Of a stretch of DNA of 40,277 bases, positions 19,192 through 30,579 are shown piece by piece. The translations under genes were made by a program, and so were the position numbers. The stretch spans positions 1 through 40,277 of the forward strand of contig NZ_FTOG01000017.1 in the NCBI RefSeq assembly GCF_900156655.1, written 5' to 3'. The stretch comes from Rhodobacter aestuarii. GTDB taxonomy: Bacteria > Pseudomonadota > Alphaproteobacteria > Rhodobacterales > Rhodobacteraceae. Below the pieces are notes generated by a model. It made no database searches, was not told the DNA's origin, and saw only the letters and a program-made list of their open reading frames with translations. Numbering within the stretch: position 1 is the first letter of the stretch; each line of letters starts with the position of its first letter.

Positions 19192-19212
19192 AGCGCTATC
19201 TTGGTTTAACGT

Positions 19213-19289
19213 GGCCCCGTGGCTCAACTGGATAGAGCAGCCCCCTCCTAAGGGGCAGGTTGCAGGTTCAAATCCTGCCGGGGTCACCA
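19213..19289 (+). tRNA. tRNA-Arg (anticodon CCT)
   Basis: A complete cloverleaf. The acceptor GGCCCCG pairs with CGGGGTC, the D-stem is GCTC/GAGC, and the anticodon stem GCCCC/GGGGC encloses the loop CTCCTAA with anticodon CCT. The T-arm is GCAGG-TTCAAAT-CCTGC, and CCA is encoded at 19287-19289. It reads AGG codons. Its 3' half (from the anticodon stem on) is the attachment site of the element to its right, and the integration restored a full gene. Confidence 0.96.
19244..19289 (+). repeat. attL (46-bp direct repeat in tRNA-Arg)
   Basis: Runs from CCTCCTAAGG in the anticodon arm to the CCA end. It is identical base for base to 30534-30579. The flanking bases differ on both sides, which fixes the repeat at 46 bp. 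Confidence 0.95.
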
Positions 19290-19303
19290 AAAAAACCAAT
19301 GAC

Positions 19304-19810
19304 TTGCGCCTAGCGCGCGGCGCATCAATCCCGCTCAATATCTGTGGTGCGCCACAGATACCGCCGAAAACGGTTCGTTCGGATACTCTGAAAAATGAAA
19401 ACCCCGGCGCGCTGGCGGGCGCAACCGGGGCAGAATTCGAAGCATCTATCTTCAAGACCAAAGAATACCGGCTTCGAGCTGAGTGGGCAAGAGCCGTCTG
19501 GTTCGCGCTCGACCATTGCCACCCCGAGGACGCTGCGCAGATCTGCGCGGGCTTTCTCGACAGCCTGAGCACCCAAGGCCCGTCCGTAAGTCATCCTTTC
19601 GGCATGACCTCGGGTGAAGCAATGATTTGGGCTGACTGCGCCCCGATTCACGAGTTGGCCGCCTATGTCGCCGCAGGGCTCGATCGTCTGCGCGGTCTCG
19701 CGCTCGCCAAGTCTGCGCGCAAACGCCTGTTCTGGGCGCTCTGGCAGGGCTTTGATCCTGAGGACCGACGCGCCTTCCTTGCCCAAGTTAAGGCGAGGGC
19801 CGTGCAATGA
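19304..19810 (+). CDS. Conserved-looking hypothetical protein at the left end of the satellite
   Basis: I do not recognise the family. The frame encodes a soluble protein rich in Ala, Trp and Arg (EYRLRAEWARAVWFALDHC; PFGMTSGEAMIWADCAPI; RKRLFWALWQGFDPEDRRAF). The start is uncertain: there is no ATG before 19604, a TTG lies at 19304 and a CTG at 19388, and no good ribosome binding site is seen. Recognisable protein-like sequence begins near 19430. The stop overlaps the next ATG (ATGA), which supports it as a real coding region. Transcription may come from the tRNA promoter. Confidence 0.6.
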   Translation: MRLARGASIPLNICGAPQIPPKTVRSDTLKNENPGALAGATGAEFEASIFKTKEYRLRAEWARAVWFALDHCHPEDAAQICAGFLDSLSTQGPSVSHPFGMTSGEAMIWADCAPIHELAAYVAAGLDRLRGLALAKSARKRLFWALWQGFDPEDRRAFLAQVKARAVQ

Positions 19811-20064
19811 CCATTCAAAGTCAGATCACGCCCTGTCTCGAAGAACTGCTGTGGAGTTGGCCGAGCGTTATCAGGCACGCTCAAGACGGCTGGGCTCGCG
19901 GATTTGCTCTGAGCATCGCCAAACAATCCCGCCGTAAGAATTGGCAGCCCTCGGTTAAGCAACTGGAAATCATGCAGCGCATGGTGGCCGAGCTTTACCG
20001 TCCGCCAGCGCCCGAGGAAGCCGACGACTGGAACCCGATCGAGGAGGACGACGAAGGCGTCTGA
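19807..20064 (+). CDS. Small hypothetical protein
   Basis: 85 residues, ATG overlapping the previous stop by four bases. Features: an N-terminal segment rich in Trp (ELLWSWPSVIRHAQDGWARG), a basic stretch (AKQSRRKNWQPSVKQLEIMQRMVAELY) and an acidic tail (EEADDWNPIEEDDEGV). No family is recognised. A nucleic-acid or protein-binding accessory role is possible, but nothing shows it. Confidence 0.65.
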   Translation: MTIQSQITPCLEELLWSWPSVIRHAQDGWARGFALSIAKQSRRKNWQPSVKQLEIMQRMVAELYRPPAPEEADDWNPIEEDDEGV

Positions 20065-20213
20065 GCAGTTTTGAACCTGTGTCGTTTGGACGGTTCAGAC
20101 GGTGGCGCTCGACACAGAAATGGCCTGCCACGGGGCATCCCATAGGCCAACCGCAGCCCGAAAGCTCGAAGCGGGGGATCGGCACCAGACCCGGTGTCGC
20201 AAGTAGCGAGCAA

Positions 20214-20339
20214 GCCCGAGGCGGGGTCATACGACCTCGGGCGCCCAGAAGCGATGGACCGGCTCCGTTGAGCAGATCTTCACGCAGAGGGCTAGGGACC
20301 AACCTGTGCCAAGCGCACGGGCTGGTCTCCCTATGCCCT
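20214..20339 (+). other. Structured non-coding segment upstream of the terminase genes
   Basis: Between 20065 and 20386 no gene is supported, but two strong inverted repeats occur. The first is GCCCGAGG / CCTCGGGC (20214-20221 with 20235-20242, 13-base loop). The second is a long imperfect hairpin 20288-20339: AGGGC pairs with GCCCT, then TAGGGACCA pairs with TGGTCTCCCTA with two unpaired bases, and an inner GTGC/GCAC stem. No T-tract follows. Candidate roles are a DNA packaging start site near terS or a structured RNA. Confidence 0.45.
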
Positions 20340-20386
20340 TCGCTCCGAACCTCACCATTGAGCAGAACAGAATAGGATAGAGAAAC

Positions 20387-20593
20387 ATGAACGCGATGAC
20401 ACGAAACGAGACATGGCAGAGGATTGGTGATCTGGCCGATCGGGTGCGCCGCCTTTGCCCGGATCACCGCAACCCCGAACGCTTCCACATTGAGAAGAGC
20501 GAGATCGAACACGAGCTTCGCCGCCTCGCTTCGGTCGCGGGTCCTTCTGGCGAAGCAGCGATACGGGTAATTCGCACCCCGACGCATGGCTAG
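20387..20593 (+). CDS. Small hypothetical protein
   Basis: 68 residues, starting MNAMTRNETWQRIGDLADRV, with a helical centre (HIEKSEIEHELRRLASVAG). No family is recognised. It lies 49 bp before the terminase small subunit start. The start ATG has a weak purine-rich leader; an in-frame ATG three codons later is an alternative. Confidence 0.5.
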   Translation: MNAMTRNETWQRIGDLADRVRRLCPDHRNPERFHIEKSEIEHELRRLASVAGPSGEAAIRVIRTPTHG

Positions 20594-20642
20594 CTGGCGA
20601 GATTTAGAACACTAAAATCAAACAGTTGAGATAGGTTTAGCC

Positions 20643-21152
20643 GTGACACTCTTCCAGACATTGCCAGATGCAGCGCCCGCCGAAATGACGAAATCGGCCT
20701 TCGCGGGTCATATCGGCGTGTCGAAAGGCCGGATTTCCCAGATGATCCGCGACGGTCTGCCAATTCTCGACAATGGCCGCGTTCCGGTCGAGGCCGCCAC
20801 CGCCTGGTATCACGCCAATGTCCGGCATAGTGCCCAGACTGCCAAAAAGTCGGCCGACGATCTGGCGCAGGTTAAGCGTGAGCGCGAGGAAGCGCACCGC
20901 GATCTTCTGCGCCTTCAGGTCGAGGAAAAGGCCGGGCGTCTGATTGACCGACGCGCCGCCGAAGCCGCGATCTTCGAGCGCGCAAGGGCCGAGCGTGACG
21001 CCCATCTCGCATGGTGTAGTCGCATCGCGCCCCTGATTGCGACCGAAACCGGCTGCAATCTCGCCACTCTCTTCGCGGCGCTTGACCGGGAAATGCGCGC
21101 CCACCTGGAAGAGCTGGCGTCCCTTTCGATCGAGGAGCTTCCAAATGCTTGA
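20643..21152 (+). CDS. Phage terminase small subunit (Nu1-like DNA packaging protein)
   Basis: 169 residues. An N-terminal winged-helix of the Nu1/DNA-packaging type (KSAFAGHIGVSKGRISQMIR, then GLPILDNGRVPVEAATAWY) would recognise the packaging site. It is followed by a long charged helix (KREREEAHRDLLRLQVEEKAG) and a C-terminal oligomerisation and TerL-contact region. The GTG at 20643 is used; ATG 20685, which begins the HTH, is an alternative. Its last eight bases overlap the terL start, as in lambda-like packaging modules. Confidence 0.82.
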   Translation: MTLFQTLPDAAPAEMTKSAFAGHIGVSKGRISQMIRDGLPILDNGRVPVEAATAWYHANVRHSAQTAKKSADDLAQVKREREEAHRDLLRLQVEEKAGRLIDRRAAEAAIFERARAERDAHLAWCSRIAPLIATETGCNLATLFAALDREMRAHLEELASLSIEELPNA

Positions 21153-22962
21153 TGCCCGCGCAATCGCTGATGCCGCTTGGCGCTCTGGTCTGCGACCGGA
21201 ACCTCAAATCACAGTTTCGGAATGGTCTGATCGGTTCCGGCGCCTGCCCTCGACCTCGGCCGAGCCCGGCCGCTGGCGCACAAACCGGACTCCCTATCTT
21301 CGCGAGATCATGGACGCGCTTTCCGTTGCCTCCCCGGTCGAGCGGGTGGTGATCATGAAGGGCGCCCAGACCGGGGGCACCGAGGCGGGGCTGAACTTCC
21401 TCGGCTATGTGATCTGCAACGCGCCCGGTCTCGCGATGCTTGTCATGCCTTCGATCGACATGGTGCGCCGCAACACCCGAACCCGGATCGACCCGTTTTT
21501 TGAGATCGTGCCGGAAATCGCTGCCCGCGTCGTGCCGGCAAAGAGCCGCGAGGCTGGCAACACGGCCACCCACAAACGGTTCACTGGGGGCGAGCTCGTG
21601 ATGACCGGGGCGAATGCTGCGTCCTCTCTGCGCTCGACCCCGGCCCGCTTCCTGGTCATGGACGAGATCGACGCCTTCCCGCTCGACGTTGAGGGCGAAG
21701 GCGACCCGATCGCGCTGGCGATCCAGCGCACCGTTACCTATCGCGGCCGCCGCAAGATCCTTATGATCAGCACCCCGACGATCAAGGGCTTCAGCCGGAT
21801 CGAGGCCGCCTATCAGGAATCGGATCAGCGGCGCTTCTTCGTCAATTGCCTGCATTGCAGCCATGCATTCGTCATTGGCTGGCAAACTATCAAATGGCCG
21901 AAGGGTAAGCCAGAAGCTGCCGCCTGCGTTTGCCCTGAATGCGGCAGCCTGCACGAAGAACGGGACAAGCCAGCGATGCTGCAACGCGGGGAATGGCGCG
22001 CTACTGCGGCGGGCGACGGGCGCACACAGGGTTATCACCTGCCTGCGCTTCTCTCACCCTTCGAAACATGGGCCGAGATCGCGTCCGAGCATAGCCGGGT
22101 CGCCGCCGATCCTGCCCGCCTTAAATCGTGGATCAACACAAAGCTGGGCGAGACATGGGAAGAGGAAGCCGCCCAGACGGTCGATTCCGGTGCTCTGTCC
22201 CGCCGTGTCGAGCATTGGGGTGAGGCTCTGCCGCCCGGCGTGGCCGTCATCACGGCCGGGATCGACACCCAAGACGAATGGCTGGCGGTCGAGCTTGTGG
22301 GATGGGGTTCGGGTGAAGAGAGCTGGTCGCTTGGCTGGCACCGCCTTTATGGCGATCTGACCGGCCCCGCGATCTGGGCCGACCTCGACAAGCTGCTGTC
22401 CCAGACCTTCGTCCACCCTCTGGCGGGCCCGTTGCCGGTCGCGGCCGCCTGCATGGACAGCGGCGGGCACCACACGCAAAGGGTGCTAGAATGGACCGCC
22501 GCCCGCCATGGCCGCCGCATCTATGCCACCAAAGGCGGATCGCAGGCCGCCCGCGCGGCATGGCCGCACAAGCCGACTTTTTCCAAGACCGGCAAGCTGC
22601 CCGTCTATGTGATCGGCGTCGACACGATCAAGGAAGTCGTCTTCGCGCGCCTGGCAAAGGCCGAGGCCGGGCCTGGCTTCTGTCATGTGCCAGCGGGCCG
22701 CGAACCCGCGTGGTTCGCCGAAATGGTGGCCGAGAAGCCATTCACCACCTATTCCAAAGGGCGAGCGATTCGCGAATGGCGTAAGAAGGCCAGCGAGCGC
22801 AACGAGGCTTTCGACTGCCGTGTTTATGCTGCCGCTGCACTGGAGGCGCTTAAGATTGGCGGGTTCAGCGTGGATCAAGAGGCTGTGCGGATTTCCGGCA
22901 GCGTCCGAATCGCTGAAACAAGTGCCCTAGCAAGAGTGAAATCGCAGTGGATGACGCGATGA
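21145..22962 (+). CDS. Phage terminase large subunit (GpA type)
   Basis: 605 residues. An ATPase-nuclease that cuts and pumps DNA into the prohead. The variant Walker A region is GAQTGGTEAGLN (73-84), Walker B is RFLVMDEIDAFP (168-179), and the coupling motif is STPT. A zinc-binding insert has CLHC and CVCPEC. The C-terminal RNase H-like nuclease domain begins near ITAGIDTQDEWLAVELVGW, with DSGGHH further on. All key parts are present and the length is full. ATG 21145 has GAGGAG eight bases upstream. Unlike lambda, no portal gene follows directly; a minus-strand regulatory block lies between. Confidence 0.93.
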   Translation: MLDARAIADAAWRSGLRPEPQITVSEWSDRFRRLPSTSAEPGRWRTNRTPYLREIMDALSVASPVERVVIMKGAQTGGTEAGLNFLGYVICNAPGLAMLVMPSIDMVRRNTRTRIDPFFEIVPEIAARVVPAKSREAGNTATHKRFTGGELVMTGANAASSLRSTPARFLVMDEIDAFPLDVEGEGDPIALAIQRTVTYRGRRKILMISTPTIKGFSRIEAAYQESDQRRFFVNCLHCSHAFVIGWQTIKWPKGKPEAAACVCPECGSLHEERDKPAMLQRGEWRATAAGDGRTQGYHLPALLSPFETWAEIASEHSRVAADPARLKSWINTKLGETWEEEAAQTVDSGALSRRVEHWGEALPPGVAVITAGIDTQDEWLAVELVGWGSGEESWSLGWHRLYGDLTGPAIWADLDKLLSQTFVHPLAGPLPVAAACMDSGGHHTQRVLEWTAARHGRRIYATKGGSQAARAAWPHKPTFSKTGKLPVYVIGVDTIKEVVFARLAKAEAGPGFCHVPAGREPAWFAEMVAEKPFTTYSKGRAIREWRKKASERNEAFDCRVYAAAALEALKIGGFSVDQEAVRISGSVRIAETSALARVKSQWMTR

Positions 22963-23076
22963 GGTGAAAGCGAATTCTTGACAAACATTTTCAAAAGTGA
23001 CTCACAAGGATTCTTGCGCGAGTCTTTAAAATATACTACATACGAGATGCGCACGGGAGCCTGACATCTATGGCGT

Positions 23077-23092
23077 CGGGGCTACGGCCCCG
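23077..23092. other. UACG-tetraloop hairpin between convergent genes
   Basis: CGGGGC-TACG-GCCCCG, a 6-bp stem closed by a C(UACG)G tetraloop, an especially stable type. It lies between terL and the convergent DUF3800 gene. No T-tract follows on either strand, so it may mark mRNA 3' ends and not act as a classical terminator. Confidence 0.45.
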
Positions 23093-23100
23093 CCCGGCGT

Positions 23101-23853
23101 CTACCTTCTCACCAGATCGTTTCTGAACCTGTCGCGTGGGTGATGAACAATGCCGTGCCCCTGTATCGACCCGTCTGGTTTGCGCCGAATTCTAGGTTTC
23201 AGGATTGCTGCCAGTTCTCCGTCTTTGGTCGAGTAGGCACGGTGAATCGCGCCTGCCACGAAGTCGGCTAGTTGGATGCCGATCGAATGACAGGAGTCTT
23301 GTAAGAACAGGCCCTCTATAAACCGGTCATAGCCAGACACGGTGCTACCAGTGCCGCTGGTCAAATTGTCATGATGGGCTCTGAACAGCCGATCATTGTC
23401 ACGGCCGCGATGGTCCGCGATGGTGACCCCGAGACTTTTGTGATCCTGCAAGAAATACTGGAACCGTTCTGAGAGCGGCTTGTACGCAAAGTGATAAAGC
23501 TCTTGCTGGTCGGTCACTGAGGCGTATTCAAAAGCCGCCCCAATGTCGGTAACGCAAGCAATGATCGTAAGCGGAGAGCGCGCGATAATGTGTGCAAAAG
23601 TCTGGCTGAGCGCCTTCCGTTCTGCCGCATTTTTTCCAAGCATTGGGTTCTCTGCTGAGGAATTATGCGGGGAGAAGTAGCGCCACTTCAATTCCCCACG
23701 CAGTGCGTTTGATGTGCAGAAGCCTCGCACATCGTTTGCAATCCCGCGCCAGTCGGCATCTCGGATTATGACCGCGCCCAACGTGAAGTAGGGCCGATCG
23801 GGGTTCGGGCGAGACGGTGGTGTGCCGCTTTCGTCAATGAAGCAAAGGTGCAT
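23101..23853 (-). CDS. DUF3800 domain protein
   Basis: 250 residues. The motif FIDESGTP at residues 5-12, the central TIADHRGRDND and the C-terminal IGIQLADFVAGAIH are typical of DUF3800, predicted to have an RNase H-like nuclease fold with acidic metal ligands. These proteins are frequent in phages, islands and defence loci, but their biochemistry is not established. Here the gene is separated from the XRE unit by 134 bp and is not part of head assembly. It could be cargo (anti-phage or anti-helper) or a processing nuclease. Confidence 0.8.
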   Translation of the reverse strand: MHLCFIDESGTPPSRPNPDRPYFTLGAVIIRDADWRGIANDVRGFCTSNALRGELKWRYFSPHNSSAENPMLGKNAAERKALSQTFAHIIARSPLTIIACVTDIGAAFEYASVTDQQELYHFAYKPLSERFQYFLQDHKSLGVTIADHRGRDNDRLFRAHHDNLTSGTGSTVSGYDRFIEGLFLQDSCHSIGIQLADFVAGAIHRAYSTKDGELAAILKPRIRRKPDGSIQGHGIVHHPRDRFRNDLVRR

Positions 23854-23987
23854 TGCGAATCCAAATGACGGTCGAGTGGAAAAACAATTCGCGATCGACT
23901 ATGACACCTGTAGCGTTGACAGGAAATGCAATTTGGGGTCGCTATACTGCCCCGATCACCCCCCAGCGCTTTTCTCGGATGCAGCGC

Positions 23988-24218
23988 TCAATCGCTTTGT
24001 TCGGAATCGTATCTCAAATAAGTTCCGATGTCTGCGAGTGCGTTGCATAGCTTTGAGGCCGTTTCGTGATCAAGTATCAGGAACTTGTCGTCAATCTTGA
24101 TATAGAGCTGCGGACCGTTGCCCAAAGCACCTGAGGTTCCGGCTTCCAAAAAGACCTGGTCCCCGCCCTTTTCCCATTGGTCTTTGATCGTGCCTTCGAA
24201 ATACGTTGTCGTTCCCAA
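23988..24218 (-). CDS. Small hypothetical protein coupled to the XRE gene
   Basis: 76 residues, soluble, with beta-rich sequence (TTYFEGTIKDQWEKGGDQVF; PQLYIKIDDKFLILD) and an acidic C-terminus. The start is a TTG with AAAGGGGG six to seven bases before it, and the gene begins one base after the XRE stop, so the two are co-transcribed. No family is recognised. It might modulate the repressor or be a toxin-antitoxin-like partner, but no known toxin motif is seen. Confidence 0.6.
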   Translation of the reverse strand: MGTTTYFEGTIKDQWEKGGDQVFLEAGTSGALGNGPQLYIKIDDKFLILDHETASKLCNALADIGTYLRYDSEQSD

Positions 24219-24219
24219 T

Positions 24220-24447
24220 CTAGGCCCCCTTTCTCAACCTTACCCCAGCCCCGCCGCCGTTCTCGGGGATGAACTCTACGCCAGCCGCCTCAAGCGCGGC
24301 CTTGATCGTGGCAACCGTGCCTTCGCGCACTTCCTCGCCCCGCTCAAGTCGCGAAACGGTTCCCTGCGAAACCCCAGCAAGTGCCGCCAATTCGCGGACC
24401 CCAAGGCCGGTTGCAGCTCTAGCCATACGGCATTGCGCGGCGTTCAT
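24220..24447 (-). CDS. XRE-family repressor
   Basis: 75 residues, almost entirely one Cro/CI-type HTH: ARAATGLGVRELAALAGVSQ then GTVSRLERGEEVREGTVATI. Its ATG abuts a perfect palindrome (24448-24464), and a second copy lies at 24497-24513, so it very probably represses itself and the divergent gene at 24537. By position it is the candidate master repressor (Stl-like role) of the satellite, released by a helper factor or by damage. That role is inference. Confidence 0.82.
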   Translation of the reverse strand: MNAAQCRMARAATGLGVRELAALAGVSQGTVSRLERGEEVREGTVATIKAALEAAGVEFIPENGGGAGVRLRKGA

Positions 24448-24513
24448 TTATAACCCTGTTATAATTTCTCTTGACGCCATGACGCCACGGTGGGAAATAT
24501 AACCCTGTTATAA
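24448..24513. promoter_or_regulatory. Bidirectional switch with two operator palindromes
   Basis: TTATAACCCTGTTATAA (24448-24464) is a perfect TTATAAC-N3-GTTATAA palindrome. ATATAACCCTGTTATAA (24497-24513) is the same site with one changed base. The centre-to-centre distance is 49 bp. TTGACG at 24471-24476 is a plus-strand -35 candidate, and the second operator overlaps the -10 region. The first operator touches the XRE start codon. Confidence 0.8.
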
Positions 24514-24536
24514 AATCCACGCAAGGAAGCAACGCT

Positions 24537-24893
24537 ATGTCCGCACATAACCCCACTTCGGGGAACGCCCCCGGCTTGCCTGCCGTTCTGCCCCGTCGCT
24601 CTTTCCTCGCCGCCCTTGCGCCGCTTGGCGCGCTGGCGGTGGCCTCGCCTGCGATCGCGCGCACCATGACGCGGGAAGAACAGATCGAGCACCACAAGGC
24701 CGAGCTGTTCCGGCTCTATGCCGAAACCGTGCCCGAGGGCACAGAGCTTCAGAACTTCATGATGGATTATTCCCCGCGCGGCGAGTTTTACCAAATGAAC
24801 GCCCGTCGCCCTGATCAACTTGGGCACAAAGATCCGTGGTGGCACTTCTCGACCGTCGATAACGAATGGCGCTACTGCGAGGTGCGCGCATGA
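24537..24893 (+). CDS. Small protein with Tat-type signal
   Basis: 118 residues. The N-terminal region has LPRRSFLAAL, a hydrophobic core and ASPAIA-R, which fits a twin-arginine signal with cleavage near residue 42. The mature part of about 75 residues is acidic and rich in aromatic residues (ELQNFMMDYSPRGEFYQM; KDPWWHFSTVDNEWRYC). AAGGAAG precedes the ATG. It is the first gene under the plus-strand side of the operator switch. No family is recognised. Export suggests a role at the host envelope, for example exclusion of other phages, but nothing proves it. Confidence 0.65.
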   Translation: MSAHNPTSGNAPGLPAVLPRRSFLAALAPLGALAVASPAIARTMTREEQIEHHKAELFRLYAETVPEGTELQNFMMDYSPRGEFYQMNARRPDQLGHKDPWWHFSTVDNEWRYCEVRA

Positions 24894-25114
24894 TGGCAGA
24901 GCGTGCCCTGTGCCCCGAAAGCAATGGTCCGAACCAGACCGGGAATCGCGCCTATCTGGCAACCGCGATCATCACCACTTGTCGCCTTGCGCTCGAAAAC
25001 GACACGAGCGGCCTTGATGATCGGACCGCGCGCGAACGGGTGGCCAGCACGCTAGAGTTCGCCGAACACCTTATGATGTTGATCGAAGATGCGGCCACAC
25101 CGTTTGGGGTGTGA
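24890..25114 (+). CDS. Small hypothetical protein
   Basis: 74 residues, ATG overlapping the preceding stop (ATGA). The sequence is helical and soluble (AYLATAIITTCRLALEN; DDRTARERVASTLEFAEHLM). No family is recognised. The overlap makes it part of the same operon as the Tat-signal gene. A second ATG follows directly at 24893. Confidence 0.6.
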   Translation: MMAERALCPESNGPNQTGNRAYLATAIITTCRLALENDTSGLDDRTARERVASTLEFAEHLMMLIEDAATPFGV

Positions 25115-25221
25115 GCATGGTGGGAAACGAAAAATCGCACCGCCATAAAATAGGTTGCAAAAGACCATTTTAACGCGTATTGAATAAGAATGGTCTTACA
25201 AGCCCACTTATGGATTGTCTA

Positions 25222-25758
25222 ATGTCGAAACCTGGAATGCGCTTTCGTCCTATGTTGGTCAGCCAGGTCGCTGAGGTGGCCGGAGAGCAGCGTGAAACCA
25301 TACGCACTCGCGAAAAGTTGGGGGTGTATGGCTTCGATCGCCCTAAGGGATGGAAGCGATACACCGACCTTGAGACCCTGGTGATCTCTGTGCACGCCGC
25401 CCTTAAGCGCGCGGTGAAAGACGATGATCTTGCCCAGTTCGGCTGCATGCTGGCTGCCAAGGCTATCATGGATGAGTGGATAGAGGACGAACAGGGAGTC
25501 CCATACTTCGACGAAGAAACGTTCCAGCGTGAGCGTTTTCTGTTTTTCTGGCGTGACGCTGCGGGCGCGTGGACCGGCGATATTGCCTCATCTGTCAATG
25601 AGATCGAGGCGCAGATTAACGAGAGGATCGTCAAAAGCTATTCGGATGTGCCGATTTTTACGACCGTGAACCTCGCCACCATCCTGAAAATGACGCTGGT
25701 CCGCATGATGAAAGTGCAGCTCAAAGCGGAAGCGTCGAAATCTGGGGGTGATCAATGA
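25222..25758 (+). CDS. MerR-like winged-helix protein
   Basis: 178 residues. The first 60 residues look like a MerR-type wHTH: LVSQVAEVAGEQRETIRTRE followed by the wing GFDRPKGWKRYTDLETL. The rest is helical and carries FFWRDAAGAW. The start is uncertain (ATG 25222, or ATG 25210, or TTG 25180). The stop overlaps the portal ATG by four bases. It could be a regulator of the head operon or a head-assembly accessory; the sequence alone does not decide. Confidence 0.65.
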   Translation: MSKPGMRFRPMLVSQVAEVAGEQRETIRTREKLGVYGFDRPKGWKRYTDLETLVISVHAALKRAVKDDDLAQFGCMLAAKAIMDEWIEDEQGVPYFDEETFQRERFLFFWRDAAGAWTGDIASSVNEIEAQINERIVKSYSDVPIFTTVNLATILKMTLVRMMKVQLKAEASKSGGDQ

Positions 25759-27197
25759 GCATTCCTTTCCTGTCCCGCATCTTTCGCCCTGCTGCGCAGC
25801 GTTCCCTTGAGGCCGCGTCCGGTTCCCATCGGTGGACCGGACGCCCGGCTTCGGGAGACGCGCAGGCGTGGGTGAGGGCAGGAGCGGGCACCGTGGCGGT
25901 CAGGGCGGCGCATTTCGCGCTGAACAACCCCCATGGTGCCCGAATGGTTCAATCTCTGTCCGACAATGTGGTGGGCGCGGGCATCAAGCCTAAGGCCCGC
26001 TCGGATAGCCCGATCGTCAACGCAGCGCTGCACCGCGCCTTCGATACCTTGACCAATGAAATCGACTGGACCGGCCAGGGCGATTTCTACGCGATGCAGC
26101 GCGCCGCGATGGCCGATATGGTGATCCATGGCGAGGCGCTGCTGATGTGGCGGGCCTCGGCTAGTGGCATTCCGCAGTTGCAACGCCTGCACCCGGAGCA
26201 GCTGGATCGGTCGATCACGCGCGTCGTTTCGGATGACATTCGGATCATCCAGGGCGTCGAATTCCATGCCTCGACGGGCCGCCCCAACTCATACTGGATT
26301 CGCCCAAGCGCACCGGGCGATGCTCTGGCCGGGATGGCCGCTCCTGCGGTTCGCATCCCGGCCAGTTCCATTATCCATATCTTCCGCCCGCTGTTGCCCG
26401 GTCAGGTGCGCGGCCTGTCGTGGCTCGCCCCAGTTCTGCTGGCCGGGCATGAGATCGACCAACTTCTGGACGCGCTGCTAGTGCGGGCGAAGGTCTCGGC
26501 CTTGCACACTGGCTTCATTTACAATGCTGATTCCAGCTCGCCCTATTCCGGCCAGCAACAAGGCGATGTGCTAACCGTGGGCATGGAGCCGGGCAGCCTG
26601 GTCAACCTGCCATCGAACAAGCGCATCGAGTTTTCCGAGCCGCCGGACAGCGGGAACGCACCCGAGCTTGCGGTGAGCATTCTGCGCACGATGGCGGCGG
26701 GCATCGGTCTGACCTATGAGCAGCTGACCGGCGATTACAGCCATGTCAGCTATTCCTCGGCCCGTGCCGCGACGTTGGAATTCCGCCGTTTCTGCGAGGC
26801 GATCCAGCATCACGTCATAGTTTTTCAGTTCTGCCGCCGCGTCTGGACCGAGTTCCTGCGCTGGCAGGTGTTGATCGGCACGGTGCCCGCCACCGCATTC
26901 GCCGACCCGGCCAAAGGTCTTCAATCGGCCAAGTGGCTGCCGCCTTCCTGGCCGTGGGTTGATCCGCAGAAGGATGCGAATGCCGCGATCCTCGAAATGA
27001 ACGCCAATCTGCGCTCGCGCTCGGAGGTGATCGCCGAACGCGGATATGACGCCGAAGAGGTGGACGCTGAGATCGCCGCCGACCAGGCGCGGGCGGAACG
27101 CCTCGGGATTGCGCTGAAGGCCGCTACCGCCACCGAATCTCAAACCGATGAAGCGCCGCGAGATAGCGTAGTGCAGGGTGATCAGAATGCCGCTTGA
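25755..27197 (+). CDS. Phage portal protein (lambda family)
   Basis: 480 residues, the dodecameric ring at the head vertex through which DNA enters and to which the joiner binds. Family features: FALNNPHGARMVQSLSDNVV near the N-terminus, the long central domain ending SWLAPVLLAGHEIDQLLDAL, the conserved GIGLTYEQLTGDYSHVSYSS, and ATLEFRRFCEAIQH. Length and termini look complete. It overlaps the preceding gene (ATGA) and the following protease-capsid gene (11 bases), so it is part of a coupled head operon. Confidence 0.93.
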   Translation: MSIPFLSRIFRPAAQRSLEAASGSHRWTGRPASGDAQAWVRAGAGTVAVRAAHFALNNPHGARMVQSLSDNVVGAGIKPKARSDSPIVNAALHRAFDTLTNEIDWTGQGDFYAMQRAAMADMVIHGEALLMWRASASGIPQLQRLHPEQLDRSITRVVSDDIRIIQGVEFHASTGRPNSYWIRPSAPGDALAGMAAPAVRIPASSIIHIFRPLLPGQVRGLSWLAPVLLAGHEIDQLLDALLVRAKVSALHTGFIYNADSSSPYSGQQQGDVLTVGMEPGSLVNLPSNKRIEFSEPPDSGNAPELAVSILRTMAAGIGLTYEQLTGDYSHVSYSSARAATLEFRRFCEAIQHHVIVFQFCRRVWTEFLRWQVLIGTVPATAFADPAKGLQSAKWLPPSWPWVDPQKDANAAILEMNANLRSRSEVIAERGYDAEEVDAEIAADQARAERLGIALKAATATESQTDEAPRDSVVQGDQNAA

Positions 27198-28983
27198 TTT
27201 ACAAATCCGCGCCGCGATGCGGCCGAAGTCGCTGAACCGCGAGGCTCGCACCGTCGAGGCGATTCTCTCGACTGGCGCTGATGTGGATCGGGGCGGCTTT
27301 ATCGAGCGGTTGGAAATCTCGGGCCGCGCGATCGACTTATCCGAGCTGCCGGTGCCGGTTCTCGACACTCACCGCCGCGAAAGCACCCGCGATATTCTGG
27401 GCAGTCTGACCGCCGCCCGCGTCGAAGGTGGCTTGCTGATCGGCACTCTCACTATTTCCAAGCGCCATGAGGCCCTTCTCGATGACATCGAGGAAGGCAC
27501 GCTGCGCTGCATTTCCGTTGGCTACACCATCAACGCTTTCCGTGACGAAGCCGACCGGGCAACCGGGCGGCTGGTGCGCATCGCTACGGGCTGGACGTTG
27601 AAGGAGGCCTCTTTCGTGCCCATCCCGGCCGATGCCGGGGCAACTGTCAGGAGTGATACTGTGAGCACACAAACCAGCCAGACGGCGCAAGCGCCCGCGC
27701 CCGTCCAGACCACCGAGGCCGCGCCCGCGTTGACACGGGCGCAAGTCAATACCGAGATCCGCGCGCTGCGCCAAACCTTCGGCCTGCCCGAGGCCTTCGC
27801 GAACGATCTGATCGACCGTGAGGCGACCGTGGAGCAGGCGCGCGCTGCAGCGGTCGAGGCTGTGCGTCAGCGCCCGACCAACTCGATCAGCACCCACACG
27901 CCCGCCTATGCCGCGACCGGCGCCACGCCCGAGACCTTCGCACGGGCGGCTGGCGAAGCGCTCTATTGCAGGGCGAACCCCTCGGTAACGCCGAGTGAGG
28001 CCGCGCGTGAGTTCATGGGTCTTTCGGTGATCGAACTTGGGCGCACCATCCTCGGCCGCGCTGGCGTCCTCACCACCGGCATGTCGCCTTCTGCGATTGT
28101 CGAACGGATGCTGACCACGAGTGATTTTCCGGCGATTATGGGTGACACCGTGGATCGTTCTCTGCGTGCTGGCTATCAAGCGGCGCCCTCGGCTCTGAAG
28201 GCCGTGGCCCGCAAGTCCACCGCCCGCGATTTCCGGCGCAAGACCAAGCTGCAAATCAGCGAAGCCCCAACGCTGGAAAAGGTCAATGAGGCTGGCGAGT
28301 TTAAGCATGGCGCGCTGCACGACGCCAAAGAGAGCTACGCCATCGGGACTTTCGGCAAGATCATTTCTGTCACTCGCCAGCTTCTGGTGAATGACGATGT
28401 GGGGGCGTTCACCGATATGTCTGCCAAATGGGGCGAGGCCGCTGCCGACTTCGAGGCGCAGCAACTGGTCGATCTGCTGGAAGCCGGTTCCGGCGCGGGT
28501 CCGGTGATGGATGACGGCAAGACGCTTTTCCACACAGATCATGGCAACATTGCCGCTGCTGCCGCCAAGATCAACGTGACGAGCCTCGGTGAGGCACGGT
28601 TGATGATGCGTAAGCAGAAGAGCATCGCGGGGCGGCCGATCAACGTTCGTCCGCGTTATCTCGTGGTGCCCCCTGAATTGGAGGTGGACGCCGAGCAAGT
28701 TCTTGCCTTGATTCAGCCGACTACCATCGAGGACGTGAACCCGTTCGGCGGCAAGCTTGAGCTGTTGGTGGAAACCCGTCTTTCCAGCGCCACGCGCTGG
28801 TATCTGGTCAGTGATCCGGCCATCACCGAAGGGCTGGAATACAGCTATCTGCAGGGAGAGGAAGGGCCGCAGATCGAAACGAAGCAAGGCTTTGAGGTCG
28901 ACGGCATGGCCTTCAAGGTCCGGCTGGATTTCGGTGCAGCCTTCCTTGAGCACCGCGGTTGGTTCCGCAACATCGGGCAGTAA
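27187..28983 (+). CDS. Fused prohead protease and major capsid protein
   Basis: 598 residues. The N-terminal 150 residues are an HK97/S78-like prohead protease with the catalytic His in PVLDTHRRE and Ser in LRCISVGYTI. A Gln/Ala/Pro-rich linker follows (TQTSQTAQAPAPVQTTEAAP). After a helical delta- or scaffold-like segment, the rest is a gpT-type major capsid protein (AKWGEAAADFEAQQLVDLLE; GKTLFHTDHGN; RPRYLVVPPELEVDA). One polypeptide thus supplies protease, probable scaffold and shell. ATG 27187, with AGGGTGA upstream, is preferred to GTG 27178. Confidence 0.9.
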   Translation: MPLDLQIRAAMRPKSLNREARTVEAILSTGADVDRGGFIERLEISGRAIDLSELPVPVLDTHRRESTRDILGSLTAARVEGGLLIGTLTISKRHEALLDDIEEGTLRCISVGYTINAFRDEADRATGRLVRIATGWTLKEASFVPIPADAGATVRSDTVSTQTSQTAQAPAPVQTTEAAPALTRAQVNTEIRALRQTFGLPEAFANDLIDREATVEQARAAAVEAVRQRPTNSISTHTPAYAATGATPETFARAAGEALYCRANPSVTPSEAAREFMGLSVIELGRTILGRAGVLTTGMSPSAIVERMLTTSDFPAIMGDTVDRSLRAGYQAAPSALKAVARKSTARDFRRKTKLQISEAPTLEKVNEAGEFKHGALHDAKESYAIGTFGKIISVTRQLLVNDDVGAFTDMSAKWGEAAADFEAQQLVDLLEAGSGAGPVMDDGKTLFHTDHGNIAAAAAKINVTSLGEARLMMRKQKSIAGRPINVRPRYLVVPPELEVDAEQVLALIQPTTIEDVNPFGGKLELLVETRLSSATRWYLVSDPAITEGLEYSYLQGEEGPQIETKQGFEVDGMAFKVRLDFGAAFLEHRGWFRNIGQ

Positions 28984-28993
28984 GGCGTAAGCT

Positions 28994-29209
28994 ATGGCTG
29001 ACCTTGAGACGCTTCAACAGCAACTCGATACCCTTCGCGCCTATCGCGCGAAGGGAACTCAGACGACTACCCTCGGGAACGGCGAGTCTGTGACCTTTAA
29101 ATCCGATGCACAGATGGCGGAGGCTATTGCCGATCTGGAACAGCGCATTGCCTCACTGTCCGGGCGCCAAGTCCGCATGGTGCGCTTCGCCTGCGGCAAG
29201 GGGGTCTAG
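28994..29209 (+). CDS. gpW-like head-tail joining protein
   Basis: 71 residues. The pattern of two helices around a short beta hairpin (LETLQQQLDTLRAYRAKGTQ; then NGESVTFKSDAQMAEAI; then LEQRIASLSGRQVRMVRFA) fits the phage gpW family, which closes the portal after packaging and offers the tail attachment face. In lambda the gene lies between terL and the portal; here it follows the capsid gene. It would be the last satellite-encoded part before a helper-derived tail. Confidence 0.75.
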   Translation: MADLETLQQQLDTLRAYRAKGTQTTTLGNGESVTFKSDAQMAEAIADLEQRIASLSGRQVRMVRFACGKGV

Positions 29210-29210
29210 G

Positions 29211-29531
29211 ATGAGCACTTTGCCCAACCTCGTTCACTACAAGGTTGCCGCAGAGGAACTGGGTATTCCGAGGGAAGCTCTGCGGCGTGTGGCGCACTCA
29301 CTGGGCTTGCTGATCATGGCAGGTCGAACCCCCAAGATTGACCGAAACGACTATCAGAGGATTGTAGACGGATGCCGCGCAAAGCCGCAGGAGCAAGACT
29401 CTATCAGCGCCCCGACACGGGTATTTTCTTCATCCGAGACACCGGCCAGCCGGAGCGCTCAACCGGCACTCGATGCCGCGAAGATGCTGAAAGGGCTCTC
29501 GCGTCCTATATCGTCTCGAAAGGCGTCGTGA
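29211..29531 (+). CDS. Excisionase-like wHTH protein overlapping the integrase
   Basis: 106 residues. Residues 1-55 form a small winged-helix (LVHYKVAAEELGIPREALRR then GRTPKIDRNDYQRIV) like AlpA/Xis directionality factors. The remaining 50 residues are low in complexity (Ser, Ala, Pro) and overlap the first 160 bases of the integrase gene in another frame. AAGGGGG lies upstream of the ATG, two bases after the gpW stop. Function as excisionase is inferred from fold and position. Confidence 0.68.
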   Translation: MSTLPNLVHYKVAAEELGIPREALRRVAHSLGLLIMAGRTPKIDRNDYQRIVDGCRAKPQEQDSISAPTRVFSSSETPASRSAQPALDAAKMLKGLSRPISSRKAS

Positions 29532-30439
29532 CGGATACTCGCCACCCTGATCGCTTCCCGATCAGTGACGCTCTGGCGATCTACGCCCGAGAGCATGGGC
29601 CGGAAACTGCTCGGCCCGGCGCAATCGCAGAAGCGATCGAGGCCCTGGTGCCGTTCTGGGGCGGTCTTATGGTCGGTGACGTCAAGGGCGAAACCTGTCG
29701 CCGCTACGCCCGCGCTCGTGTAACCACTCATGGCGCGCCGAAAGGGGAGACGCGGCCCGTCAGCCCCGGCACAGTCCGCCGTGAGCTTGGCGTTCTGTCG
29801 GCCGCGATCAACTTCTGCCATCGGGAAGGCTATCTCACCCACACCGTCACCGTTACCCGCCCTGAGCAACCCCCGCCTCGAGAGCGCTGGTTGACCCGGC
29901 AGGAGGCGGCCGCGTTGCTCCGGGCTGCCCTCAGGTTGACCCGTGGTCGCCACCTGGCGCACTTCATTCTGCTCGCGCTTTACACAGGAACAAGGAAGGA
30001 CGCGATTCTTCGGCTCGGCTTCCTGCCCAACACGGCTGGCGGCTGGATCGACGTAGACCAAGGGGTGCTGCGTCGGCGTGGCGAACAAGAGCGCGAGACC
30101 AAGAAGCGGCGCCCGCCTATGAGGCTGTCGCGCAAGCTTCTCGGCCATTGCCGACGTTGGCGCGCGATGGGCGATATTTGGGCTGTTACCTATCAGGGCC
30201 AGCGCGTCGATGATGTGAAAAACGCCTTCGCCGCAGCCTGCGAAAACGCGGGCCTTAGCGACGTCACGCCTCACACCCTGAAGCACACTGCAATCACCTG
30301 GGCGATGCAGAAGGGCATGCAGATCGACGACGCAGCGCAATATTTCGGGACGTCCCGCGAAACCATCATCCGGGTCTATTGGCATCACAGCCCATACTTT
30401 CAGCAGGACGCGGTGGCGGTGATGGATCGCAATCAGTGA
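29372..30439 (+). CDS. Tyrosine integrase
   Basis: 355 residues. Catalyses recombination between the 46-bp att sites. The N-terminal SAM-like core-binding domain covers about residues 62-165; the catalytic domain starts near ERWLTRQEA. Active-site residues: R208 in LYTGTRKDAI, a lysine in TKKRRPP, H301 and K304 in TPHTLKHT (Lys where most have Arg), and Y336 in VYWHHSP. The His/Trp of the usual GHSS box is replaced by T327. Both changes are also found in relatives of this integrase group, so it may be active. The gene ends 94 bp before attR. Confidence 0.92.
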   Translation: MPRKAAGARLYQRPDTGIFFIRDTGQPERSTGTRCREDAERALASYIVSKGVVTDTRHPDRFPISDALAIYAREHGPETARPGAIAEAIEALVPFWGGLMVGDVKGETCRRYARARVTTHGAPKGETRPVSPGTVRRELGVLSAAINFCHREGYLTHTVTVTRPEQPPPRERWLTRQEAAALLRAALRLTRGRHLAHFILLALYTGTRKDAILRLGFLPNTAGGWIDVDQGVLRRRGEQERETKKRRPPMRLSRKLLGHCRRWRAMGDIWAVTYQGQRVDDVKNAFAAACENAGLSDVTPHTLKHTAITWAMQKGMQIDDAAQYFGTSRETIIRVYWHHSPYFQQDAVAVMDRNQ

Positions 30440-30533
30440 TACACCACAGTTTCAGCCGCCTCTAGACAAGTCGAGACGTGAACAAAACAAGGGAAAAACG
30501 GGAAAAATGAGCGAACTTAGCCAGCAAAATTAT

Positions 30534-30579
30534 CCTCCTAAGGGGCAGGTTGCAGGTTCAAATCCTGCCGGGGTCACCA
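30534..30579 (+). repeat. attR (46-bp direct repeat)
   Basis: An exact copy of the tRNA-Arg 3' half at 19244-19289, including the CCA. The preceding 5' half of the tRNA is absent, so this is the distal end of the integrated element and not a second tRNA. Confidence 0.95.

Follow-up and report, generated by a model that had tools for sequence, protein, structure and literature searches.

A tail-less, att-bounded element of Rhodobacter aestuarii as a probable capsid-forming phage satellite

Are phage head genes that stand in a bacterial chromosome without a tail the remains of a prophage, or the equipment of a satellite that builds its own capsid? The question is raised by an 11.3-kb element on contig NZ_FTOG01000017.1 of Rhodobacter aestuarii (assembly GCF_900156655.1; 3.84 Mb in 31 contigs), and the window, i.e., the whole stretch of DNA that was analysed, is the whole of this contig (C30; 40,277 nucleotides). 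Judged from its genes and relatives, the element can with good confidence be read as a capsid-forming, cos-packaging satellite of an alphaproteobacterial lineage that runs parallel to the capsid-forming phage-inducible chromosomal islands (cf-PICIs), dependent on a helper phage for its tails and probably for its replication. It is real and probably functional.

As originally predicted, the element is bounded by perfect 46-bp att repeats, identical throughout and spaced 11,290 bp from start to start, and the first copy lies inside an intact tRNA-Arg(CCT) gene (Table 1). Sixteen open reading frames (ORFs) were read between the repeats, and all 16 were scanned against Pfam and PHROGs. The scans bear out a full-length integrase together with TerS, TerL, portal, protease-capsid fusion (also matched by Mu-like gpT) and gpW joiner, the last through PHROGs only ('head-tail adaptor Ad1'), with no match of its ORF to the Pfam gpW family in the Pfam scan. 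The recognised genes are open reading frames. Beside the head and packaging set stand genes for a DUF3800 protein and a repressor-type helix-turn-helix (HTH) protein, and the element further has an ORF resembling an excisionase and a cos site like that of lambda. As had been claimed, neither database gave any of the 16 ORFs a significant match to a family for tails, lysis or replication; the single weak lysis-named match (endolysin phrog_2742, E 0.059) falls within the integrase. By PHROGs (E ≤ 1e-8), the resident prophages do show tails, namely a tape measure, tail fibre and distal tail protein in C7 and a tape measure, tail terminator and tail assembly protein in C12. The window element shows no tail module and so is not an intact tailed prophage; its genetic make-up is that of a capsid-forming satellite, with its own capsid, portal, protease and terminase, no recognised tail, an integrase and att borders.

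The same layout recurs in other genomes. A capsid search of 394 genomes of the host family gave matches of any quality in 121, and the neighbourhoods of 40 of the better relatives showed in many cases the order terS-terL-(accessory)-portal-capsid-gpW-(cement, PF09956)-(excisionase)-integrase-tRNA, with host genes beyond it. This order, which the original prediction had proposed to seek at other loci, is seen in many other genomes and is therefore more than chance. With 80 loci from named genomes and 80 from IMG/VR added to those of the host family, 201 capsid-holding loci were available (some genomes fetched twice, the window and prophage C7 included); 83 have an integrase within 4 kb after the capsid gene, 41 have at least 4 kb and no integrase, and 77 were too short to classify. 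Direct repeats 22-63 bp long, spaced 9,851-12,509 bp apart, mark the ends of 21 other elements; not counted are a duplicate, a repeat that lies in prophage C12 and L164, a circular contig. Counting the window, 19 of the 22 repeat-bounded elements have a tRNA gene no more than 150 bp from a repeat, and the tRNAs differ. More repeat-bounded elements measure 11,762 and 11,933 bp (L333, L349) and 12,497 and 14,969 bp. L164 itself is an IMG/VR contig of 11,498 bp with a 127-bp terminal repeat and therefore closes as an 11,371-bp circle. Among 20 portal neighbourhoods from a search of the phylum, gpW follows the capsid gene in five (L331-L333, L343 and L349), all from genomes of the same class; in the remainder gpW, where found, lies between terL and portal, and several have no gpW or matching capsid.

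Tail genes in such relatives would point to a deletion, and the family was examined accordingly. In the 22 elements 229 genes were called (the gene caller missed some small ones), of which 118 lie outside the core and form 61 clusters; the pooled set comprised 62 proteins, i.e., 57 cluster representatives and five further window ORFs, the four representatives set aside being fragments of capsid or portal and an ORF of 39 aa. Against Pfam these gave 12 families, none of them tail or lysis, and among the 25 of 47 PHROG families listed most were primase, helicase or initiator, plus cement and TerS. In addition, 20 tail-region proteins of C7, C12 and the Rhodobacter phage RcKemmy were searched against the 201 loci (tblastn, E ≤ 1e-5). 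Matches occurred in four: three of the 41 integrase-less loci (C7 itself; the 34.7-kb IMG/VR contig L240, which has a tail set; and L055), one of the 83 with integrase (L219) and none of the 77 short ones. C7 and L240 are tailed phages, so the expectation of relatives without tail genes largely held, within the reach of a search that distant tails may escape.

Gene order and capsid relationships suggest where the lineage came from. The best-ranked tailed-phage capsid among 50,697 phage records is 38.7% identical to that of the window; 216 records had a capsid match, and the 30 listed are all at least 27 kb. In five phage records read (one of them, LPPA33, by gene sizes, being annotated as hypothetical proteins only) the order is terL-gpW-portal-capsid-cement, then attachment or tail genes. 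In satellites gpW directly follows the capsid gene (193 loci had a gpW match); L239 has the phage order. The gpW-after-capsid order is derived and common to the satellites. A capsid tree of 58 rows (quick method, SH-aLRT only, and with six of its 12 phage rows being contigs named phages by gene similarity only) separates all 32 satellites, together with 12 rows of a second tail-less group, described below as group 2, from 11 of 12 phage rows. A very long branch leads to the remaining phage row, Psul1.

How would such an element be packaged? Just upstream of terS, the family shares the motif GGGTCCTT(C/T)C, a spacer of about 12-20 nt and a CGGG...CCCG dyad. Of 40 family loci selected (the window among them, and one genome represented twice), 36 have the form GGGTCC[TC][TC] 400-800 nt before terL, and it occurs in 20 of 80 other loci with terL; in the 22 elements it totals 30 occurrences on both strands. 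In the excerpts of published work used here and below, cosQ and CG flanks are conserved among lambda-like phages (PMC4669245), lambda-like cosQ/cosN is carried by PICIs (PMC9026076) and RcKemmy has 11-base 5' overhangs (PMC8601537). The lambda record ends GGGTCCTTTCC...ACG and starts GGGCGGCGACCTCG, while the RcKemmy record ends (...CTATGCG/GGGGGCGGAAGCGCG) match class-B satellites such as L209 at the predicted nick. The window site is unique in the window with three mismatches allowed, and none of 100 shuffles matched. By comparison with the lambda and RcKemmy record ends, the nick and a cohesive end of about 11-14 bases, starting GGTAATTCG, can be predicted. A cosQ followed by a cosN dyad before terS, with a Nu1/GpA terminase, argues for lambda-type cos packaging. 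As a side observation, the RcRhea record (NC_028954.1; L389:61-80) carries ahead of its apparent cohesive end, at the record start, a sequence that we take to be Nextera adapter-like.

The cos site also points to a helper. The pattern GGGTCCTTC-N(12-32)-CGGGTAATTCGCACCCCG has exactly two copies in the genome, one in the window element and one just before TerS of the tailed prophage C7, and the reversed-pattern control has none. In the 394 family genomes it occurs at seven places in six genomes; three are satellites (C30, G097, G234), the sites in C7, G075 and G303 adjoin phage-type capsids, and that in G038 had no match to the queries. Among 52 stretches with the pattern in IMG/VR, seven belong to whole contigs, 10.5-13.0 kb long, whose capsids are of the satellite type (46-48%, plus the window's own); of the others some are 27-57 kb with phage-type terminases and some are short. 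Moreover, the cosN cores agree better within than between seven genomes that hold a satellite and a phage (mean 16.6 of 19; 8 of 5040 arrangements as good), for sites chosen by eye from 34 genomes and with a statistic that ignores shared host ancestry. Six of the seven second cos sites, all with a phage-type neighbourhood, have tail-type genes nearby, and the short G783 stretches show head genes and an attachment protein only. The test was first run on nine genomes (0 of 20000 shuffles), after which one G215 site was dropped together with G309, which is identical at 19 of 19 but had no phage gene found next to its site, and G784, which matches poorly (12) and showed no phage genes at the two of its five sites that were examined. 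Class-A satellites co-reside with C7-like phages and class-B satellites with RcKemmy-like phages, and G318 has both. The window TerL is nearer to RcKemmy-like TerLs (35-43%) than to C7-like ones (24-31%), and inheritance along with the terminase therefore does not simply explain the cosN match to C7. The resident prophage C7, which shares the cosQ/cosN pattern, appears as the best candidate helper. Contig C7 also holds, beside tRNA-Arg(CCG), an integrase 54% identical to that of the window (G000:C7:261548-262603); no window-type head gene was found beside it, either leftward (L392) or in 19.9 kb rightward (L400).

A second element of the source genome bears on how these heads are assembled into satellites. 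G000:C15:243613-254275 (L398:3614-14276; 10,662 bp, 48-bp repeats, tRNA-Cys(GCA)) encodes an HK97-type portal, protease and capsid, an HNH-like gene, TerL, an integrase and a relative of u1, the first gene of the window element. Its head proteins are 78-87% identical to those of L394:496-10752 (G804, same genus), in which 10,209 bp between 47-bp repeats hold u1, u2 and a related integrase together with a PF05065 capsid above the Pfam cut-off, a terminase matching PDB 6z6d and an HNH-like gene (named from sequence). The strain thus seems to be home to two distinct capsid-forming satellites as well as two tailed prophages. Both head types stand side by side in L197 and G239 (L262/L038); the integrase-then-u1 arrangement of L197, considered as an excised circle, was rejected, being a window-type element followed by an HK97-type one. 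The joining of a u1/u2/integrase chassis to a PF05065/HNH head in L394 is a sign of head-module swapping. It could be speculated, tentatively and with more doubt than belief, that an alphaproteobacterial chassis (integrase/excisionase, u1-u2, repressor) swaps whole head modules (PF25209/gpW or HK97/HNH) and sets its cos to match the co-resident helper independently of its own terminase, i.e., cos mimicry. If so, the DNA ends of helper and satellite could be joined, or the helper terminase could also cut satellite DNA.

Several observations weigh against a helper-dependent satellite, or against C7 as its helper. The control for the tail-gene check found tails in only six of nine phage loci, and distant tails can therefore be missed; the PHROG tally of the pooled proteins rests on 25 of 47 families listed, while all 12 Pfam families were listed. 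Upstream of terS, L037:17842-18552 matches phrog_1924 'minor tail protein', as does the C7 set, and in the integrase-bearing L219 a single minor-tail-like gene stands 5.6 kb ahead of the capsid gene. These are possibly neck proteins adapting the head to helper tails, and one neck- or tail-like gene may be present in a few satellites; in the window none is seen. L055 (G101), a mosaic or decayed element, has C12-like tail fragments upstream of the capsid gene, beside a broken portal. Furthermore, only one of the three genomes with the exact pattern in a satellite, the source genome, also has it before a prophage, and the window gpW is 44% identical to that of prophage C12 with no match to that of C7, so that C7 stands as a candidate helper.

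Could the element be a defective prophage, in decay after its tail, lysis and replication genes were deleted? L055 could suggest so, as could the homology between the element's head genes and those of RcKemmy and other tailed phages, and a decayed relative in the same genus (L393; partial capsid, with 8,146 bp separating its repeats). Such decay is improbable, as the recognised genes of the element are open, its integrase, cos and repressor-type gene are kept, and the satellite capsids are split from 11 of 12 phage capsids; above all, decay is rejected as the main reading because the repeat-bounded layout is found again, at different tRNAs, in 21 other elements that are similar in size and because the gpW order is derived and shared. 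Nor is a domesticated head module, resembling a gene-transfer agent, or an anti-phage decoy a likely account, and we give it the least credence of all: head-only loci can be co-opted and the element carries DUF3800 and HTH genes, yet perfect att repeats, an integrase, its own cos site, a circular relative and a presence in some genomes only, at many tRNAs, all speak for a mobile element.

The closer comparison is with cf-PICIs, which encode terminase, portal, protease, capsid and connectors and take tails from a helper (PMC10690885, PMC10803314); like them, the window element has its own head and terminase genes and no tail genes. As published descriptions set them apart, it differs in its PF25209 capsid, which had no match at E ≤ 1 to PF05065, the family in which cf-PICI capsids were compared (PMC13230959), and in having no Pfam match to HNH among its 16 ORFs, whereas the cf-PICI packaging set includes HNH (PMC10690885). 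At 11.3 kb it is, as predicted, smaller than usual, the cf-PICI average being 14 kb (PMC10803314). AlpA had no Pfam match in the window ORFs, and one of the 62 pooled proteins matches HTH_17 (0.00098). A primase or replication gene of the satellite's own is a PICI feature, and none was matched in the window. A true, merely divergent member of the published family is therefore a rather unlikely reading, although the logic is the same, L394 and the C15 element join the u1/integrase chassis to a PF05065/HNH head like that of cf-PICIs, and cf-PICIs are described as widely distributed across Bacteria (PMC10690885); the main hosts are named without Alphaproteobacteria in an excerpt that is worded 'primarily' (PMC10803314). 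Of the two possibilities first raised, a parallel lineage is thus favoured because of the PF25209/phrog_4523 capsid, the GpA/Nu1-type terminase and the missing HNH, and membership of the cf-PICI class is not.

Other systems resemble the element in part. Siphophages of the RcC cluster of Rhodobacter (RcKemmy), with genomes near 41 kb (PMC8601537), and C7-like prophages have homologous TerL, gpW, portal, protease-capsid and cement proteins and a cos at the matching place, but complete tails and gpW between terL and portal. The Mulch/Flayer satellites of Streptomyces, described as without significant homology to known satellites, have head and packaging genes and no primase, and MulchRoom virions have helper-like tails (PMC10690885); by description they are like the window element, in other hosts. 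PICMI, P4-like elements and PLE are likewise small and integrate at specific sites (PMC10803314), but PICMIs make no capsids of their own (PMC10803314) and P4 and PLE are not known to make any (PMC11389934), whereas the window element has its own head genes.

For the capsid-forming satellite preferred here, a cycle may be proposed. A helper phage, infecting or induced, would relieve repression, and Int/Xis would excise an 11.29-kb circle, to be replicated by host or helper machinery. TerS/TerL would then cut concatemers at cos and fill the satellite-encoded head, its gpW neck would accept the head-closure protein and tail of the helper, and the helper would lyse the cell. Dependence on a helper for tail and replication would follow from the gene content. 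The absence of a recognisable primase or helicase stood up in Pfam and PHROGs, and, with the u1 frame set aside, TerS is the longest frame on the same strand between attL and terL; relatives do have such genes at the left end, encoding AAA_25, PriCT_2, VapE or DUF5906 proteins or O-like initiators. In the window, u1 and u2 sit where other members have AAA_25, VapE or O-like genes. They occupy the left end in relatives too, and replication dependent on helper or host is therefore plausible beyond this copy, for a sub-lineage.

Group 2 has primases, methyltransferases or restriction-modification (R-M) genes, and its integrase is at the opposite end where seen. Its TerL is about 54% identical to that of the window (L043, L048, L049 and others), and in the capsid tree it nests inside the satellites with very short branches. 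When six of its contigs were extended, 47-bp repeats delimited an element in two of them, with spacings of 17.3 and 18.1 kb. A first guess that these loci are tailed phages was rejected on a gene content without a tail family: the gene lists (nine of the 41 integrase-less loci; ten proteins of three loci scanned against Pfam) held R-M genes, a GTPase, primases, cement and host genes, and 24 pooled proteins of the two repeat-bounded elements gave no tail name among the 25 of 34 PHROG families listed. GGGTCC[TC][TC] was not found in ten group-2 tree members examined. In L053 another prophage-like gene set lies further downstream on the opposite strand. L272 (Paracoccus pNSM5a 168461-185056), L049 and L043 are tail-less elements of this group with very similar capsids across genera.

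As far as searched, the lineage is new and its kind is known. Literature searches found no title or abstract on capsid-forming satellites in Alphaproteobacteria, with the founding cf-PICI and SatelliteFinder papers outside the searched texts, so absence from print is not established. The element would extend capsid-forming satellites to this class with a different head, in a tail-less layout that recurs rather than reflecting a single deletion. It supplies a predicted packaging site and a candidate helper within the same genome, which makes it testable now whether own-head satellites still match the cohesive ends of their helpers. Some 10-12-kb 'incomplete prophages' of Alphaproteobacteria may be complete satellites; the window element itself is stored in IMG/VR as a virus genome (L293; 11,229 bp, all 16 window proteins matched at 100%).

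Table 1 Features of the window element, with positions in the window.
Feature	Position	Strand	Basis
tRNA-Arg(CCT), integration site, intact copy	19213..19289	+	ARAGORN
attL, 46 bp	19244..19289	+	repeat comparison
u1, family protein, motif NPGALAGATG; uncertain start (frame stays open upstream as far as a GTG at 19211)	19391..19810	+	22-sequence alignment
u2, small family protein, 4-bp overlap with u1	19807..20064	+	relatives in other loci
u3, 68-aa ORF, 3' part overlaps cos site	20387..20593	+	sequence and relatives
cosQ-like GGGTCCT	20539..20545	+	family motif and lambda right end
cosN-like CGGGTAATTCGCACCCCG	20564..20581	+	family pattern; predicted top-strand nick between 20565 and 20566
TerS (Nu1-like)	20643..21152	+	phrog_57 (5e-30)
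TerL (GpA-type)	21145..22962	+	PF05876 (3e-91), PF20454 (9e-84)
DUF3800 protein, cargo	23101..23853	-	PF12686 (1.5e-17)
u7	23988..24218	-	one relative, in L068 (40%)
HTH (XRE/C1-type) putative repressor	24220..24447	-	PF13560 (1.5e-8); relatives in several elements
u9, small protein with twin-arginine-like N-terminus	24537..24893	+	sequence
u10	24890..25114	+	sequence
u11, MerR-like regulator preceding portal	25180..25758	+	inferred from family alignment; no Pfam match of its own
Portal, lambda family	25755..27197	+	PF05136 (6e-82)
Prohead protease-major capsid fusion	27187..28983	+	phrog_4523 (6e-185), PF25209 (1.5e-55)
gpW-type head-tail adaptor (Ad1)	28994..29209	+	phrog_2545 (5e-12)
Excisionase-like ORF	29211..29531	+	phrog_66 (0.0012), weak match only; relatives in other loci
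Tyrosine integrase	29372..30439	+	PF00589 (3e-10), phrog_1 (2e-36)
attR, 46 bp	30534..30579	+	repeat comparison

Among the smaller genes, u1 had no significant Pfam or PHROG match and two marginal matches among the 50,697 phage records. With its end overlapping cos, u3 may be conserved partly at the DNA level rather than purely as a protein. A 10,690-bp linear plasmid of Rhodovastum atsumiense (RHOAph; NZ_OW485609.1, L270) encodes ParA, a DUF3987 protein and a protease-capsid fusion, with no terminase or portal annotated, and is possibly a satellite-plasmid. Finally, the N-terminus of u9, whose gene adjoins the HTH gene, carries what we take from its appearance to be a twin-arginine-like motif; small proteins with such N-termini are also found in L037, L074, L096, L110 and L137 and are possible exported exclusion proteins.

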